Shown in pieces: positions 724 through 40,741 of a stretch of DNA of 64,000 nt (position 1 is its first letter; the number at the start of each line of letters is the position of its first letter). The DNA is taken from NCBI RefSeq assembly GCF_016278365.1, contig NZ_JADQBZ010000008.1:186001-250000 (forward strand), read 5' to 3'. This DNA comes from Methanolobus sp. (GTDB lineage Archaea > Halobacteriota > Methanosarcinia > Methanosarcinales > Methanosarcinaceae). The position numbers were made by a program, and so were the translations under genes. The notes below the pieces were generated by a model. It ran no database searches and had not been told where the DNA came from. It was given only the letters and a program-made list of their open reading frames with translations.

Positions 724-3416
724 ATAAAGTAGCTTTGCGAATATACCCTACGAAAAAAGAAAGTAACAAGAAAAAGAAGACTAACTTTAGATATGAGAAG
801 GAAGTTCCTGAATTTACTAGAGTTTTTACTTTTGATACAGAAACAACGGCTGATGAATATCTTAACTTAAAATTTGGTTACTTTGATGTACATGAGAATG
901 ATGTTTTTCATTATGGTGGCCTCTTCTGGGATGAGAGACATGTTTCAGAGAAAGAATACAAGATACTAGAAAAATTCTCTAAAAAGCATAACATACGCTT
1001 GTTTTCTCTTAAGCAGTTTATCACGATATTCTATCTGGAAGTCTATGAAAGAAAAGCTCTCTGTATTGGATTCAATCTCAATTTTGATCTCTCAAGAATC
1101 ATTCTTGATTATGGTCATGGAAGGTACTCAGGCAAAGACGGTTTTTCTTTTTTGCTCACTGAGGATACAACATACCCTAGAATACGCATAAAACATCTTA
1201 CAGGGAGATCATACAATGTCGAGTTTACAAGAGCGAAGGGTAAGTACAGGAAGGAGAGGACGTTCAAAGGTCATTTTCTGGATATCTGTAATCTAGCATG
1301 CATTTTGACAGATAGCAAATCTCTTACTCTTGAAAAGGCATGTGACATATTTGATACACCAATAAAGAAGCAAAAAACAAAGAAGCACGGTGTGATCACT
1401 CCAAAATATATTGCTTATAACATTACAGATGTAAAATCCACTTATGAGGTATTCAAAAAAGTAAGGCAGGAATATGAAAGATACCAGTTAAATATTTCAA
1501 TGACTGATGTCTACTCTGCTGCTTCTCTTGGAAAACAAGCCCTCAAACAATGCAATATCACACCTTTCATGGATCAAAATCCCGATTTTCCTCCAGAGGT
1601 TCTTGGAAAAATAATGAGTGGATACTATGGAGGGCGATGTGAATGCAGGATAAGAAAAACACCTACAAAGGTTACAGTACTTGACTTTTTCAGTATGTAC
1701 CCAACTGTAACACTACTTCTTGATCTCTGGAAATTTGTTGTCGCAAAAAGTATACAATACACCGATGATACAGAAAATGTTCGTAGATTGATAGAGTCAT
1801 TCACTTTAGAAGATGCACTAAATCCTGATATATGGAAGGATTTAGTTGTCCTTGTTGAAATTGAGCCTGAAGAAGACATTTTTCCAGTTAGGTCAAAGTA
1901 TAGTGAAAAGGATGCGACCTTCAATATTGGAGTTAATAAAATAACATGGGACAAAAGACTGTTTTACTTCCTACCCGATGTTTTAGCCTCAAAGTTGCTT
2001 ACAGGCAAATCTCCAAAAATCAAGAAGGCTATTAGGTTCATTTCAGAAGGCATTCAGGAGGATCTCAAGGAAACAGAGGTCTATGGAGTTCATGTAAATC
2101 CAAAAGAAGATAATCTTATCAAAGTCCTTGTTGAACGCAGGCAAGAGATTAAACAAAAAATGAAATCACTTCCTAGAGACTCACATGAATATGATGTTCT
2201 TGATGCACAGCAAAAGGCAGTTAAAATTCTTAATAATGCAACTACATACGGTATTTACATTGAAATGCATCCAAAAGATGAGGAAGATTTGACTGCATAT
2301 AGCAATATTGATTATGAGACAAAAGGGATATTTGAAGAAACAGCAGCGTTTTTCAATCCGATAATCGGTGCATGCATTACAGCAGGATCACGTTTGTTAA
2401 TTGCTATTGCTGAAAGGTATGTGATGGATAAAGGGGAAGTTCATGCATATATGGATACAGATTCAATTTTTGTTCCTCCACATCTTGCAGAGGAATTGAG
2501 CCACCTCTTTGATTCACTTAATCCTTATGACTTTGATAAGCCAATTCTGGAAATAGAGGATGGAATGGAACACATCTGGTTCTATGGTATCAGTTCCAAA
2601 AGGTACTGTTTGTTTAGAAAAGAAGGAAATAAAATCGTTATTCCCGAAGGAAAGAAACTCTTCTATAAACTACATGGTTTAGGACATATCACAAATCCTT
2701 TTAGTCTTGAATTGAAGGAAGGAGAACATTGGCACAAAAGATTATGGGATGACATTCTCAAAGTTCATTTCCATCCTGAAGAGTTAATTGATGTATTGGA
2801 GACTTACGACAATTATGCAGTTATCTCCATTTTTACTGTATCAACTGGAAATGTTCTATTACGCTTCAAGAAAATGAACGAAGGCAAGGAATTTTCTGAA
2901 CAAATCAAACCTTTCAATTTCATGCTTGTTGGAAGTGGTGCAACAGTCAATGAGAAAGGAGAGAACATAAAACCCATTGCTCCTTTTAACAAAAACCCTC
3001 AGGTAGTAGTCGAGAAAAAGTGTATAGACTCTTATACAGGAGATATTTGTCAGGGGAGGCACCTCTGGAAGCCGTTAGCTGACGTGTTTCTTAGCTACAT
3101 AAACCATCCAGAAGCCAAATTTGAAGGTGATATTGGTGTTCTACAAAGAAGACATCTAAAGCCCACAGGATGCGTGTATGTGGGCAAAGAAGCCAATAAG
3201 ATTGAGATGCAGGAGTTGGATGGTATTCATATTGATATTTATCCCATAATTGAGGATATTAGGGAATTTGTACTCAACTTAAGTCCTGCTGAAGCTAGAG
3301 AAATAGGGATTAAGCACAGGAGTTCATTGAAGCAATTGAAGGATAGGGTAAGAGAAGGTGACTTTAATATGAGTACCAAGGAGATGAAGAAGGTGCTAAA
3401 AGCCATGTACTCTTAA
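720..3416 (+). CDS. Family B DNA polymerase, viral/mobile-element type
   Basis: This 898-residue protein has the full exonuclease and polymerase motif set. Exo I is FDTET (D39, E41), Exo II is GFNLNFD (D123), and Exo III is YNITD (Y233, D237). YYGGR near 302 precedes motif A, DFFSMYP (D322). Motif B is KILNNATTYG (about 502-511) and motif C is DTDS (579-582). All catalytic acids are present. The YxGGR motif and the overall form resemble the viral and plasmid DNA_pol_B_2 group, many of which are protein-primed, rather than the replicative archaeal PolB. It is coupled to the HNH-like gene. Two decayed copies of its C-terminus lie at 7.3-8.0 kb, so this polymerase has entered or duplicated here more than once. 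Protein priming itself is not shown by the sequence. Confidence 0.9.
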   Translation: MNKVALRIYPTKKESNKKKKTNFRYEKEVPEFTRVFTFDTETTADEYLNLKFGYFDVHENDVFHYGGLFWDERHVSEKEYKILEKFSKKHNIRLFSLKQFITIFYLEVYERKALCIGFNLNFDLSRIILDYGHGRYSGKDGFSFLLTEDTTYPRIRIKHLTGRSYNVEFTRAKGKYRKERTFKGHFLDICNLACILTDSKSLTLEKACDIFDTPIKKQKTKKHGVITPKYIAYNITDVKSTYEVFKKVRQEYERYQLNISMTDVYSAASLGKQALKQCNITPFMDQNPDFPPEVLGKIMSGYYGGRCECRIRKTPTKVTVLDFFSMYPTVTLLLDLWKFVVAKSIQYTDDTENVRRLIESFTLEDALNPDIWKDLVVLVEIEPEEDIFPVRSKYSEKDATFNIGVNKITWDKRLFYFLPDVLASKLLTGKSPKIKKAIRFISEGIQEDLKETEVYGVHVNPKEDNLIKVLVERRQEIKQKMKSLPRDSHEYDVLDAQQKAVKILNNATTYGIYIEMHPKDEEDLTAYSNIDYETKGIFEETAAFFNPIIGACITAGSRLLIAIAERYVMDKGEVHAYMDTDSIFVPPHLAEELSHLFDSLNPYDFDKPILEIEDGMEHIWFYGISSKRYCLFRKEGNKIVIPEGKKLFYKLHGLGHITNPFSLELKEGEHWHKRLWDDILKVHFHPEELIDVLETYDNYAVISIFTVSTGNVLLRFKKMNEGKEFSEQIKPFNFMLVGSGATVNEKGENIKPIAPFNKNPQVVVEKKCIDSYTGDICQGRHLWKPLADVFLSYINHPEAKFEGDIGVLQRRHLKPTGCVYVGKEANKIEMQELDGIHIDIYPIIEDIREFVLNLSPAEAREIGIKHRSSLKQLKDRVREGDFNMSTKEMKKVLKAMYS

Positions 3417-36022: not shown

Positions 36023-38425
36023 TCAAATACTTTGCATTGATACTAAACCATTCCCGTTATGAGATACCATTGGCCTTGGCATGTCAATACCCAGTGCTTC
36101 TCTCAGGACATCCTCGATAGTCTCTACAGTTACAAACTTCAGTTCGTTCCGGGCATCTTCCGGTACATCATCCAGATCCCTCTCATTCTCTTTCGGCAGG
36201 ATCACTTTCTTTATACCTGCCCGGTGTGCTGCCAGAACTTTCTCTTTGATGCCGCCAACCGGCAGTACGGCTCCGCTTAGCGTGATCTCGCCGGTCATGG
36301 CAAGTTTCGGATCGACTGTTTTACCGGTTATCAAAGACGTCAGTGCAGTGAAGAGAGTCACACCTGCCGAAGGGCCGTCCTTGGGAGTTGCACCTGAAGG
36401 CACATGGATGTGGATATCACTTGCAGTGAAGTCAAAGCTGCTCGCAGTGTTTGCAAGCCGGGACCTGACAAGGCTTAAAGAGATATGTGCCGACTCTTTC
36501 ATCACATCCCCAAGCTGTCCTGTAAGCGTAAGTTTCCCGGTACCAGGCATGAATGTGCCTTCTATGAAGAGAATATCTCCTCCCACAGGGGTCCATGCAA
36601 GCCCGGTAACCACGCCAGGCACGTTTTCTTTTCTTGCTTCTTCCTGACGGATCAACTCCTTTCCAAGAATCTGCGTGAGCATATCCGCCTTCACTATATA
36701 AGGAAGTTCAGCCTTTCCTGAAACTATCCTCTCGGATATGAACCTTGCAGTTCTCGCAAGCTGTTTCTTGAGGCCTCTTACTCCTGCTTCACGGGTGTAT
36801 TTATCGATGATTATCTTTAGAACATCGTCTTTGATCTCTACCTGACCTTCATCAAGGCCGTGCTCTTCCAGTATACCGGGCAGTATGTGATCTTTTGCAA
36901 TTGCAAGTTTCTCGTTCTTCGTGTAGCCAGAGATTTCAATTATCTCCATTCTGTCAAGAAGCGGTCCCGGGATACTTGCCAGAGAATTGGCAGTGGCTAT
37001 GAACAATACCTCCGAAAGGTCGTATGAAACTTCAAGGTAGTGATCGGAAAATGTACTGTTCTGCTCGGGGTCAAGGACTTCCAGAAGGGCACTTGCCGGG
37101 TCTCCTGAGTAGGAAGACGAAAGCTTGTCTATCTCATCGAGGATGAATACAGGATTCTTGGTCCCCGCTTTCCTTATACTCTGGATGATCCTTCCGGGCA
37201 TAGCTCCTACATATGTTCTTCTGTGCCCTCTGATCTCTGCTTCATCCCTGACACCTCCAAGGCTTACGCGGACATATTCCCTGCCAAGGGCATCTGCAAT
37301 ACTCTTTCCAAGACTGGTCTTGCCGGTACCAGGGGGACCTGTGAAAAGTATGATCGAGCCCTGCTTCTCATGCTTTAGTTTCATTACTGCCAGGTGCTGG
37401 ATTATCCTCTCTTTGACCTTTTCGAGTCCGTTGTGATTGCCCTCAAGCACACTGCGGGCCTGGGCAATGTCAATGCTCTTTTTCTTCTCCACTATCCATG
37501 GAAGATCAAGCAGGAGGTCCAGATAATTCCTGATAACATGGCTTTCAGGATTGTGATTTCCTCCGGTCTCGAGTTTCTTTAACTCTGAAAGCGCCTTCTT
37601 TTTGACATCATCCGGCATCTTTGCACTCCCGATTCTTTCACCGTATCCTCCTTCACCTGAAACAGAGTCCTCATTTTCATTGAGCTCTTCCTGGATGACC
37701 TTCAATTGCTCACGCAACATCGCTTCTCTATGTGACTTGTTTACCTTCTCGGCAACTTTCTTTGCCACTTCGATCTGGATGTTAATGTTCTCTTTCTGGT
37801 TTGTAAGAATATAGAGGAATGTCAGATAGCGTTCACGAGCGGAAACGGTTTCCAGGAGATCCTGTTTCTCTTCCAGCTCTATCGGCATGAACGGCATAAC
37901 GTATCCCATTATCTGATCAATGGAATCCATCTTGTCAATAGGTTTGGTGAATTGTTCTGAACTCTGAAAACGATCGCTTATCTCATGAATCGTCTTCCTG
38001 ACATCTGCCATTATCTGCGTGTGGAAATCTTCATCAAGATCGTGAACATCAGGGATGTCAGTATGTGTAGCATAGAACAATCCATCTCTTTGGTTCAGGG
38101 AAACTGAACCTATTCTTTGAATAGCCTGCGCATAGACCAGAAACCCTTCATCAGCAGGTTGTACAAATTTGATCTCTAGCAGATTCCCTGTCCTATACAG
38201 ATCGTCTTCTGACAAATCTGAAGTATTCGTTCCGCTTTTTGCCGTTAACCCAATTGCATATGCTGATCCTTCATTTCTTATTTCGTCTAGAAGTATCTTT
38301 CCTATATTCTTATCAGCCAGTAGTTTTGTCTGGCTATTGGGATAGACTACGACTTCAAAGAGCGGAATTACAATATTCTCTCTGATATTGTTGATTTGTT
38401 GTGGATACATTGTTGTTTGTCTCAT
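36023..38425 (-). CDS. lon: Bacterial-type ATP-dependent Lon protease (LonA)
   Basis: 800 residues. An N-terminal LON substrate domain (1-200) and a helical region lead into an AAA+ module with Walker A GPPGTGKT (363-370) and Walker B VFILDEID (426-433). The C-terminal protease domain has Ser in PKDGPSAG (S686) and the catalytic Lys in GGIKEK (K729). There is no membrane segment, so this is soluble LonA, not the membrane LonB typical of archaea. A transfer from bacteria is likely. It follows a MarR gene on the same strand, with repeated TTAGTTA sites between them. The first ATG is close to a TATA-like run; ATG at 38410 is an alternative start. Confidence 0.93.
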   Translation of the reverse strand: MRQTTMYPQQINNIRENIVIPLFEVVVYPNSQTKLLADKNIGKILLDEIRNEGSAYAIGLTAKSGTNTSDLSEDDLYRTGNLLEIKFVQPADEGFLVYAQAIQRIGSVSLNQRDGLFYATHTDIPDVHDLDEDFHTQIMADVRKTIHEISDRFQSSEQFTKPIDKMDSIDQIMGYVMPFMPIELEEKQDLLETVSARERYLTFLYILTNQKENINIQIEVAKKVAEKVNKSHREAMLREQLKVIQEELNENEDSVSGEGGYGERIGSAKMPDDVKKKALSELKKLETGGNHNPESHVIRNYLDLLLDLPWIVEKKKSIDIAQARSVLEGNHNGLEKVKERIIQHLAVMKLKHEKQGSIILFTGPPGTGKTSLGKSIADALGREYVRVSLGGVRDEAEIRGHRRTYVGAMPGRIIQSIRKAGTKNPVFILDEIDKLSSSYSGDPASALLEVLDPEQNSTFSDHYLEVSYDLSEVLFIATANSLASIPGPLLDRMEIIEISGYTKNEKLAIAKDHILPGILEEHGLDEGQVEIKDDVLKIIIDKYTREAGVRGLKKQLARTARFISERIVSGKAELPYIVKADMLTQILGKELIRQEEARKENVPGVVTGLAWTPVGGDILFIEGTFMPGTGKLTLTGQLGDVMKESAHISLSLVRSRLANTASSFDFTASDIHIHVPSGATPKDGPSAGVTLFTALTSLITGKTVDPKLAMTGEITLSGAVLPVGGIKEKVLAAHRAGIKKVILPKENERDLDDVPEDARNELKFVTVETIEDVLREALGIDMPRPMVSHNGNGLVSMQSI

Positions 38426-38439
38426 TTATATATTGATAG

Positions 38440-38494
38440 TTAGTTAACCGGTTAGTTAATCAGCTAGTTATTTAGTTAGATTTACCCTAACTAA
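38440..38494 (-). promoter_or_regulatory. lon promoter with MarR-type operator repeats
   Basis: TTAGTTAG (38472-38479) and CTAACTAA (38487-38494) form an inverted repeat with the same half-sites as the marR operator. Additional TTAGTTA half-sites lie at 38440-38446 and 38452-38458 around TAACCGGTTA. A TATA-like CTAAATAA (minus strand, about 38475-38468) lies among them, so a bound protein would block transcription. Confidence 0.65.
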
Positions 38495-38508
38495 TGGTGA
38501 ATAAAAAA

Positions 38509-38928
38509 TCATCTCACCTTTCGCAGGATCTGTATCAGATCATCCATATCCTTTTCATCCAATGACTCTGCCATCTTTTCAATGAGCTTCAGCAGAGAAT
38601 TCTGTTCGGACCGGGCTATTATCTGTCCTTTTTCGGTCAGGCGGATATAGAATATCCTCCCGTCATCAGAGGATCTTTCCCTGTAAACGCACTCCATTTG
38701 AACGAATTTCCTGACCATCTCAGTGATAGTGGGTTTAGAGTTGCGGGTGATCTTCGCAAGTTTGCTGAACGTTACCTCCCCGTGTTCATCTATGGTTTTC
38801 AGATATCCTATCTGCTTCACGGTGATATCCGATAGACCACATCCGGAGAAGATATCGCAAGAGCAATCGCTTTTGATTTTGAACAGGCCTTCAAAAACCG
38901 TAAACAAATGCTCTTTTCTTTCCATCAT
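38509..38928 (-). CDS. MarR-family repressor
   Basis: 139 residues. The winged helix is visible (VTFSKLAKITRNSKPTITEMV, then RRSSDDGRIFYIRLTEKG as ERSSDDGRIFYIRLT). CDIFSGCGLSD near 23-33 holds three cysteines that could sense oxidants or metal. It lies 83 bases before lon on the same strand. Matching operators stand before both genes, so it probably represses itself and lon. The signal is unknown. Confidence 0.88.
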   Translation of the reverse strand: MMERKEHLFTVFEGLFKIKSDCSCDIFSGCGLSDITVKQIGYLKTIDEHGEVTFSKLAKITRNSKPTITEMVRKFVQMECVYRERSSDDGRIFYIRLTEKGQIIARSEQNSLLKLIEKMAESLDEKDMDDLIQILRKVR

Positions 38929-38944
38929 ATTTTCATCCGGATAG

Positions 38945-38971
38945 TTAGTTAGGTGCTAACTAATTATATAG
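38945..38971 (-). promoter_or_regulatory. marR promoter and operator
   Basis: A perfect 8-bp dyad TTAGTTAG-GTG-CTAACTAA spans 38945-38963. A minus-strand TATA box (TATATAAT, 38971-38964) directly adjoins it, so repressor binding would block transcription. The ATG of marR is 17 bases downstream. Confidence 0.75.
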
Positions 38972-39018
38972 TTGTCGGCTATAGAAGGCAACTGGTCTTA
39001 AATAAATACTTCAAGAAA

Positions 39019-39813
39019 TCAGATTCCCACTATCGATACAGAATCCTTTAAATAATATTCAAAGAGCTCTTTTCCCCAATCAAATTGATCTTTTCTACGA
39101 CATAAAAGATATTTACTCTCGAACTCCCCATTACTTTTTTTTGGACGTATCTTGGTGTAATAATCATTATATGAAAAAGACAGAAAATCCATATTTTTTG
39201 TATAAAGAGAAAACTGAAATAACTTGCTATTTATCAATCTTTCAAAATCTGCATAATTGTCAGTCCTTATTTTGTCAAGTAGATTTTTGGAGACAATAAA
39301 ATGCACGCTCACATTCTTTGCGATCAGTTCTGAGAATAACTCCGGAAATTTAGGGTAAAAGAAAGTAGTAATCCCGCAAAGGGATTTCGACTTTTTGGAG
39401 GCTTCATAGAAGTCATTGTTCATTTCATATATAGCCATCAAAGGAGGGTTAATTACTTTACATTCTCCAAGCTCATTTATCCTGTTAAAGAGATTAGGAG
39501 GGATAAAACTAAAATCATGGGCTCCCCAGTAACCAACATCCTCACCGAAGATGTTAATATATTCCAGGAAGGAGCTAATTTCATTAACAATCAGTTTTCC
39601 AAGAGTAGTCAGATTATAGATATCATGACAATGGTTGATGAGATAGTGCTCTTCCAGTATCCTTACCTGTGGAAGTAATGCCTGTCTGCTGGTATCAAGA
39701 GTTTTGAGAAGGTATTCCATCTCCTGTGGACCATCCTGCAATAGCAAAAGCATTTGCTTTCGTTTCTCTGACATGAATACTACATCAAGCAGCGTTTTTT
39801 TCATTTGTAGCAC
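39019..39813 (-). CDS. Msr-type transcriptional regulator (winged helix + FilR1)
   Basis: 264 residues. MKKTLLDVVFMSEKRKQMLL and LDTSRQALLPQVRILEEHYL mark the winged helix, YWGAHDFSFIPPNLFNRI the FilR1 domain, and FDWGKELFEYYLKDSVS the C-terminus. GTG at 39813 or ATG three codons on may start it; AGAGGAAT lies upstream. It is tandem with the paralog at 39947-40741 (133 bases apart, same strand), as if by duplication. It sits between marR/lon and the RNA candidate copy 1. Confidence 0.87.
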   Translation of the reverse strand: MLQMKKTLLDVVFMSEKRKQMLLLLQDGPQEMEYLLKTLDTSRQALLPQVRILEEHYLINHCHDIYNLTTLGKLIVNEISSFLEYINIFGEDVGYWGAHDFSFIPPNLFNRINELGECKVINPPLMAIYEMNNDFYEASKKSKSLCGITTFFYPKFPELFSELIAKNVSVHFIVSKNLLDKIRTDNYADFERLINSKLFQFSLYTKNMDFLSFSYNDYYTKIRPKKSNGEFESKYLLCRRKDQFDWGKELFEYYLKDSVSIVGI

Positions 39814-39946: not shown

Positions 39947-40741
39947 TTATAGTTCAGTTACTGGTTGAGAGATCTTCAGGTAATGTTGGAAGAGTTCTTT
40001 CCCCCAAACAAGAGATTCGGGACTGGAACAGAGCATATGGTTGATATCAATATGGCCTTCACTTGTCAATAAACGAAGGAGAAGATAATGATCGTTATGA
40101 GCTACAACCTGAATGCCTATCTCTTTTGAGTACACATAGAGGTTGAATGACTTACTATTAAGAAGCCTGTCAAAGACTTCATAGTGATATGTCCGCATTG
40201 TGTCTACCACATTTTTGGTAGTGATAATATACAGCTTTACATCCTTCTGGACCATATCAGTGAATACTGCTGGATAATCCGGGTGAAAAAAAGAAGTTAT
40301 CACATAAAAAGCTTCAGACATAAACGTTGTTCTTACAACTTCCTGGTTAAGCTGGTATGACTCTGTAAGCGTGAGATTTACTTCCTTGCATTTTCCAAGT
40401 TCCCTTAATCTCTCAAAAAGGTGAGGCGGGATGAAATCAAGGTTATGTGTTCCCCAATAATCAGTATCTTCATTGAAAACCTCAAGAGTACCCATTAAAG
40501 GACTCATTTTATCCACAAGCAGTTTTCCAATATGTGTCAATCCATAAACATCGTTTGAGCCGGTGACCAGGCAATGGTCTTCCAATATTCTTACCTGCGG
40601 AAGTAATGCCTGTCGTGTTGCTTTTAATGATCGGAGAATATATTCCATTTCCTTTGGACCATCATGAAGCAGTAAAAGTGTATTCATTATCTTCTCTGAA
40701 GCAAATATAACATCAAGCAGTGGTTTCTTCATAGGTATCAT
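39947..40741 (-). CDS. Msr-type transcriptional regulator (winged helix + FilR1)
   Basis: 264 residues. MKKPLLDVIFASEKIMNTLL, LKATRQALLPQVRILEDHCL, YWGTHNLDFIPPHLFERL and SLVWGKELFQHYLKISQP show the full family architecture. The usual SEKRK motif is SEKIM here, which may alter the wing or dimer contacts. ATG at 40732 (M4) aligns with the family start. It is upstream of its tandem paralog at 39019. Target unknown. Confidence 0.87.
   Translation of the reverse strand: MIPMKKPLLDVIFASEKIMNTLLLLHDGPKEMEYILRSLKATRQALLPQVRILEDHCLVTGSNDVYGLTHIGKLLVDKMSPLMGTLEVFNEDTDYWGTHNLDFIPPHLFERLRELGKCKEVNLTLTESYQLNQEVVRTTFMSEAFYVITSFFHPDYPAVFTDMVQKDVKLYIITTKNVVDTMRTYHYEVFDRLLNSKSFNLYVYSKEIGIQVVAHNDHYLLLRLLTSEGHIDINHMLCSSPESLVWGKELFQHYLKISQPVTEL

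Follow-up and report, generated by a model that had tools for sequence, protein, structure and literature searches.

Does the MarR-family regulator encoded beside lon in a methanogenic archaeon serve as a dedicated repressor of this ATP-dependent protease, and through which arrangement of DNA sites might it do so? The question is posed by a stretch of 64,000 nucleotides from Methanolobus sp. (the window, by which the whole of this stretch is meant), in which marR is followed by lon on the minus strand with 83 nt between the two genes (Table 1). The original prediction had read matched half-sites before marR and before lon as the mark of a single regulon. We consider here how the genes, the sites and their surroundings bear on that proposal in this genome and its relatives.

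The marR-lon gene pair

The regulator carries a MarR winged-helix domain (residues 35-92; 46.8 bits with Pfam PF01047 against a cut-off of 24.6). Among the NCBIfam models of named MarR subfamilies (OhrR, HpaR, FabT, AdcR and others), 15 match the protein, all of them far below cut-off (best, 48.4 versus 200 bits), and a search of solved structures returned distant MarR relatives only (best E value, 8e-8). The structure predicted from 15 sequences was of poor quality (mean pLDDT, 53.9). The protease is of LonA type, with a score of 859.2 bits for TIGR00763 (cut-off, 608), and it comprises the Lon N (PF02190), AAA+ (PF00004) and S16 (PF05362) domains, with PKDGPSA around the serine. The next in-frame ATG, at 38410, matches in alignment the start that most relatives retain and is hence probably the true lon start, rather than the annotated-style position 38425. 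At the locus closest to the window (L033, genome G021), MarR is 96% and Lon 98% identical. Two tandem genes for FilR1-like regulators lie directly upstream of marR on the same strand.

Table 1. Features of the marR-lon locus, in positions of the window
Feature	Position	Strand	Description	Family model
lon	36023..38425	minus	LonA-type ATP-dependent protease	TIGR00763
Extra TAACTAA copies	38440..38471	minus	in lon leader; lineage-specific	
Predicted lon operator	38472..38490	minus	19-bp motif, TTAGGGTAAATCTAACTAA on minus strand	
lon dyad	38472-38494		TTAGTTAG-N7-CTAACTAA, 23 bp, before lon	
T-run	38503..38508	minus	six T, directly after marR stop codon, 12 nt before lon operator; putative marR terminator	
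marR	38509..38928	minus	MarR-family winged-helix regulator, 139 aa	PF01047
Predicted marR operator	38945..38963	minus	19-bp motif, TTAGTTAGCACCTAACTAA on minus strand	
marR dyad	38945-38963		TTAGTTAG-N3-CTAACTAA, before marR	
BRE/TATA-like stretch of marR promoter	38964..38977	minus	abuts operator; C-A-A-A-A-N-C-T-W-T-A-T-A-A-like columns, 61 loci	
FilR1-like regulator genes	39019-39813; 39947-40741	minus	tandem, directly upstream of marR	PF08350

In a 60-genome set that includes this genome, a close MarR (at least 61% identity, weaker matches to other MarR proteins being ignored) was found in 22 genomes, LonA in the same 22 and neither in the other 38. Eight of the 27 genomes of the genus (G002, G009, G012, G017, G018, G020, G022 and G023) are without marR and lon, and this joint absence suggests that gain or loss affects both genes together. 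When 294 genomes were drawn evenly from the phylum (MarR at E ≤1e-20, LonA at E ≤1e-60), 44 had MarR and 46 had LonA; each of the 44 MarR genes was located immediately upstream of lon in the same orientation, with a gap of 35-218 nt between the matches. The pair is kept in Methanosarcinaceae and in three further families of the phylum. Lon without MarR was encountered in two of the 294 genomes, G100 and G104. The Lon of G100 is 36% identical and found in a different gene setting. In G104 (L157, around 1850-3128), marR is missing and lon is truncated but still preceded, at 98 nt, by a TATA-like stretch and what resembles a degraded motif; the latter reaches 13.7 points on the operator score described below, compared to at least 21 for intact sites, and the lon region looks like a decay remnant after loss of marR. 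G011 has a second marR copy (L160, G011:C103), cut by the contig end and preceded by a predicted operator of its own, and its lon is in two separate pieces.

A shared 19-bp motif and the size of the predicted regulon

The half-sites TTAGTTAG and CTAACTAA had been described as common to marR, with a 3-bp spacer, and to lon, with a 7-bp spacer, and the letters are confirmed at both places. Taken alone, TTAGTTAG is ordinary (four occurrences against 2.2 expected). The paired pattern at spacers of 1-12 gave two matches in the window and none in 100 dinucleotide-preserving shuffles; at spacers of 0-12 it occurs at two places in the 2.87 Mb genome, before marR and before lon, and the reversed control pattern at none. 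The genome scan that had been suggested as a check thus singles out precisely the two sites in question, and random scatter through AT-rich DNA is contradicted by this result and by the shuffles alike. The extra TTAGTTA copies reported earlier are real as well, lying in the lon leader between the dyad and the ATG; among the loci read, such TTAGTTA/TAACTAA extras are restricted to this genome and its nearest relative (G021/L033) and are absent from G026 (91% MarR identity). What had to be given up is the description of the operators by their 3-bp and 7-bp spacers. The TTAG unit recurs every 4 bp in this genome, and several dyad axes therefore fit, with TTAG and CTAA separated by 3, 7 or 11 bp. 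In the relatives, the marR and lon sites share one 19-bp motif in one register, by which the two spacers are ruled out as two forms of the operator.

The motif, TTAGG-N8-AACTAA, was analysed in 69 loci, which the removal of seven repeats reduced to 62 distinct ones. One marR site fell outside the scoring frame, leaving 61 of 62 scored, and lon counts are given out of 61 because lon is absent from L048, which consists of a marR fragment at a contig end. In L046, the deposited sequence has a broken marR frame, which was not corrected. Neither L046 nor L048 entered the 60-row protein sets, both being too short. An operator was called present above a cut-off of 20 weighted points that was set by hand after the scores were known, the nearest values being 21.0 above and 15.0 below it. 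So defined, the motif precedes marR in 61/62 loci and lon in 56/61. In the sites of both genes, TTAG at positions 1-4 is invariant or nearly so and AACTAA at positions 14-19 is nearly invariant, with G at position 5 in 56/61 marR sites and in all 56 lon sites. Among the motif-bearing loci, MarR identity to the window's protein falls to as low as 57%, which argues that the motif is not explained by plain relatedness. The lon site is missing in five of the 61 loci (L116, L146, L138, L139 and L144), in lineages that retain the marR operator; the predicted lon operator is thus not needed everywhere.

Regulon size was assessed in the 22 genomes having the pair, using a strict pattern, TTAGKNNRNNNCNAACTAA, that was derived from the sites themselves and misses some lon sites. 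The scan gave 40 rows, equivalent to 36 distinct places, of which 35 are at marR or lon (one of these precedes the marR fragment at the G011 contig end). The single stray match (G032:C85:16248) has no clear target and is considered background, given that the reversed control of TTAGKNNRNNNCNAACTAA produced 11 matches in the same genomes. Further conserved targets were not found by the strict pattern in these 22 genomes, and weaker members are possible. The proposal that marR and lon form one regulon is therefore strongly supported by the adjacency and co-occurrence of the genes and by the motif conserved before both of them in several methanogen families. We consider it highly probable that MarR binds both predicted operators and represses marR and lon, in a regulon of essentially two genes.

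Promoter context and the T-run behind marR

Both sites had been placed at promoter position, and this was borne out for marR and not for lon. A BRE/TATA-like stretch abuts the marR site, and the marR start codon follows 12-17 nt behind the operator in nearly all loci (L008 differs); a protein on this operator would hinder polymerase loading, hence cause ordinary repression. Before lon, an ordinary TATA box was recognised neither with a BRE/TATA matrix trained on marR, and so biased to marR, nor by a plain consensus count. Near the lon operator the matrix gave a best mean of -1.7, as compared to 13.5 at marR, with no marR-like position. Matches to TTTATATA with at most two mismatches were present in 24/60 lon regions (about 39 upon shuffling) versus 49/62 marR regions (about 23 upon shuffling). 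A general promoter model built on 38 upstream sequences from the window was discarded, having drifted to a poor motif for which the shuffled 95% point (9.4) exceeded the gene median (7.5); 3/62 marR and 0/60 lon regions scored above that point. The distance from the operator to the aligned lon start ranges from -3 to 179 nt. Single loci (L036 and L101) show TATA-like stretches beside the lon operator. The long lon leaders of L036, L037 and L041 are built from degenerate tandem repeats similar to the sequence that immediately precedes the lon start, and in one clade (L016-L020 and L022) the interval from operator to lon start contains a small hairpin-like CAGCC-A-run-GGCTG element.

A run of T separates marR from the lon operator. 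In most loci it begins immediately behind the stop codon of marR, and it has seven or eight T in 39/56. Runs of at least four T are present in 55/56 loci with a lon operator and in 0/5 loci without; as background, 7/50 genes in the window have at least four T in a row within 12 nt behind the stop. The end of the run lies 10-15 nt from the lon operator (mean, 13.1; s.d., 1.27; 56 loci), and in five loci where the run is shifted 4-14 nt from the stop codon (L101, L102, L109, L038 and L041), the operator distance is still 11-14 nt. In L006, the T-run is lost and the operator stays. On a tree of 60 MarR proteins, loss of T-run and operator needs three changes, at least two of them on well-supported branches; the two elements were lost jointly at least twice, these two or three events being too few for a test. 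Lineages lacking both would have a plain two-gene operon. According to the available part of one study (PMC8716108), U-tracts signal the end of transcription in archaea, including M. mazei, and T-runs end many archaeal transcripts; the T-run is therefore most simply understood as a terminator. Folding compared with shuffles gave no signal for an RNA hairpin before it (mean z, -0.31; 2/56 below -2).

Proposed control of lon, its alternatives and known counterparts

From the sequences and their conservation, MarR can be pictured as a dedicated, self-regulated repressor of LonA in methanogenic archaea that would work through one type of 19-bp operator. Positioned just downstream of the TATA box, the marR operator would allow bound MarR to repress marR itself. 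Because a TATA box is not recognisable before lon, polymerase started at the marR promoter most likely reads into lon. The T-run might then function as a partial terminator, and MarR bound downstream of it as a roadblock that holds the polymerase on the T-run and so favours termination. A signal releasing MarR would open marR initiation and passage into lon together, as a double lock on the protease. Within this best explanation, we give the roadblock step a chance not far below even, and an unusual lon promoter composed of T-run and operator is a possible substitute for it. Put forward as a free-standing claim, a signal-controlled roadblock terminator formed between marR and lon by MarR 10-15 nt behind the T-run is, in our view, less likely than not. 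Arguments for the roadblock are the lack of a recognised ordinary lon TATA box, the fixed gap between T-run and operator, their joint loss and, by analogy, the parallel in Pol I termination considered below; the loss of the T-run in L006 with the operator kept, and the missing hairpin signal, argue against it.

The fixed distance would be expected if MarR stops the polymerase on the T-run, and it also fits with lon having a promoter of its own in which the T-run is an atypical TATA element, transcription starts inside the operator (at about A8/A9) and MarR blocks initiation. The regulon would be the same, without control of termination. The T-run is placed some 22-28 nt before A8, which is the usual TATA distance, and the lon sites keep A8 and A9 in 56/56 and 55/56 cases, respectively, compared with 51/61 and 46/61 for the marR sites. 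However, the T-run consists of almost nothing but T and is tied to the stop codon of marR, which sets it apart from the mixed marR TATA boxes of the same genomes, and these properties favour a terminator over an atypical promoter, as do the low BRE/TATA scores before lon. We regard an own lon promoter as a serious contender, held with well under even confidence. If terminator and operator acted apart, the fixed distance would not be expected. It is therefore unlikely that an ordinary MarR site and an ordinary marR terminator, unlinked, accompany a weak lon promoter that escaped recognition: a shifted T-run retains the gap, and T-run and operator vanish together, although T-runs do end many archaeal transcripts (PMC8716108, in its available part) and L036 and L101 have their TATA-like stretches next to the lon operator.

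Two further explanations concern the motif itself. It might belong to another DNA-binding protein, for example one of the two FilR1-like regulators encoded directly upstream of marR in the window, and MarR be a mere neighbour; yet the motif accompanies MarR in 22/22 searched genomes carrying MarR and is scarcely present elsewhere in them, and the DNA upstream of marR varies among the loci read, making this very improbable. Still harder to credit is that the dyads are hairpins of leader RNA and no protein sites. Short stems can be drawn, and folding of the lon site is a little stronger than that of shuffles (mean z, -1.11; 10/56 below -2), but most of the marR site, which is flanked by the TATA box and the start codon, would precede the expected start of the RNA. 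An RNA hairpin for the dyads was rejected on the stem pairing, position 3 being always A and its partner 13 being T in only 11/56, without compensation.

As to the signal to which the repressor would respond, the three cysteines that had been noted near the MarR N-terminus are there, at residues 22, 24 and 30 of 139, and are joined by C80. Across 60 proteins, C22 is conserved in 58, C24 in 30, C30 in 59 and C80 in 55. With C22 and C30 near-invariant, thiol oxidation or a metal becomes the leading guess, which we favour only tentatively; the conservation fits it and proves nothing. Irrespective of the signal, archaeal LonA gains a dedicated, testable candidate regulator with a very small predicted regulon, and the unit of T-run and operator is a variant worth testing. 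The laboratory species M. acetivorans and M. mazei offer genetics, provided that they carry the marR-lon pair, and work on it would help to learn when methanogens need the Lon protease. In the open-licence literature searched, no description was found of a dedicated MarR for Lon in archaea.

The autoregulated MarR operon, on the other hand, is of a known kind. E. coli marRAB and S. aureus MepR represent autoregulated MarR-family repressor operons, and the MepR site contains GTTAG repeats. The likeness is in the small winged-helix repressor that adjoins its target and in the palindrome-like site over its own promoter; here, a conserved predicted operator abutting a TATA-like box is found at marR's own promoter in 61/62 loci. 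The difference is in the target, an AAA+ protease as opposed to an efflux pump or drug-pathway enzyme, and in the second site behind the T-run. CtsR of Gram-positive bacteria is a dedicated repressor beside ATP-dependent protease genes that controls itself and them; it is of another protein family and controls clp genes, whereas the present case involves MarR and LonA in archaea. In one survey, the Lon proteins of M. acetivorans and M. mazei fell together with a bacterial Lon, and lateral transfer was proposed; its available part is silent on a MarR neighbour or regulation (PMC2605481). Bacterial repressors such as LacI, CcpA and CodY are known roadblocks to elongating polymerase, and the accessible part of that account has nothing on archaea with a T-run at fixed distance (PMC10310618). 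A similar geometry, as far as the available text of PMC12366685 describes it, is that of Pol I termination by Reb1, Nsi1 or TTF1: Pol I pauses in T-rich DNA that lies 15 bp upstream of the roadblock site, comparable to the 10-15 nt seen here. That terminator marks the constitutive end of the rRNA genes and has an RNA hairpin before the T-rich stretch that is held necessary, whereas the marR-lon junction gave no hairpin signal and would involve a presumed ligand-controlled repressor. If the roadblock is true, a single transcript would be controlled twice by one repressor, once in its initiation and once in its termination, and repressor and T-run together would make a natural, regulated archaeal terminator with the geometry of Pol I termination.
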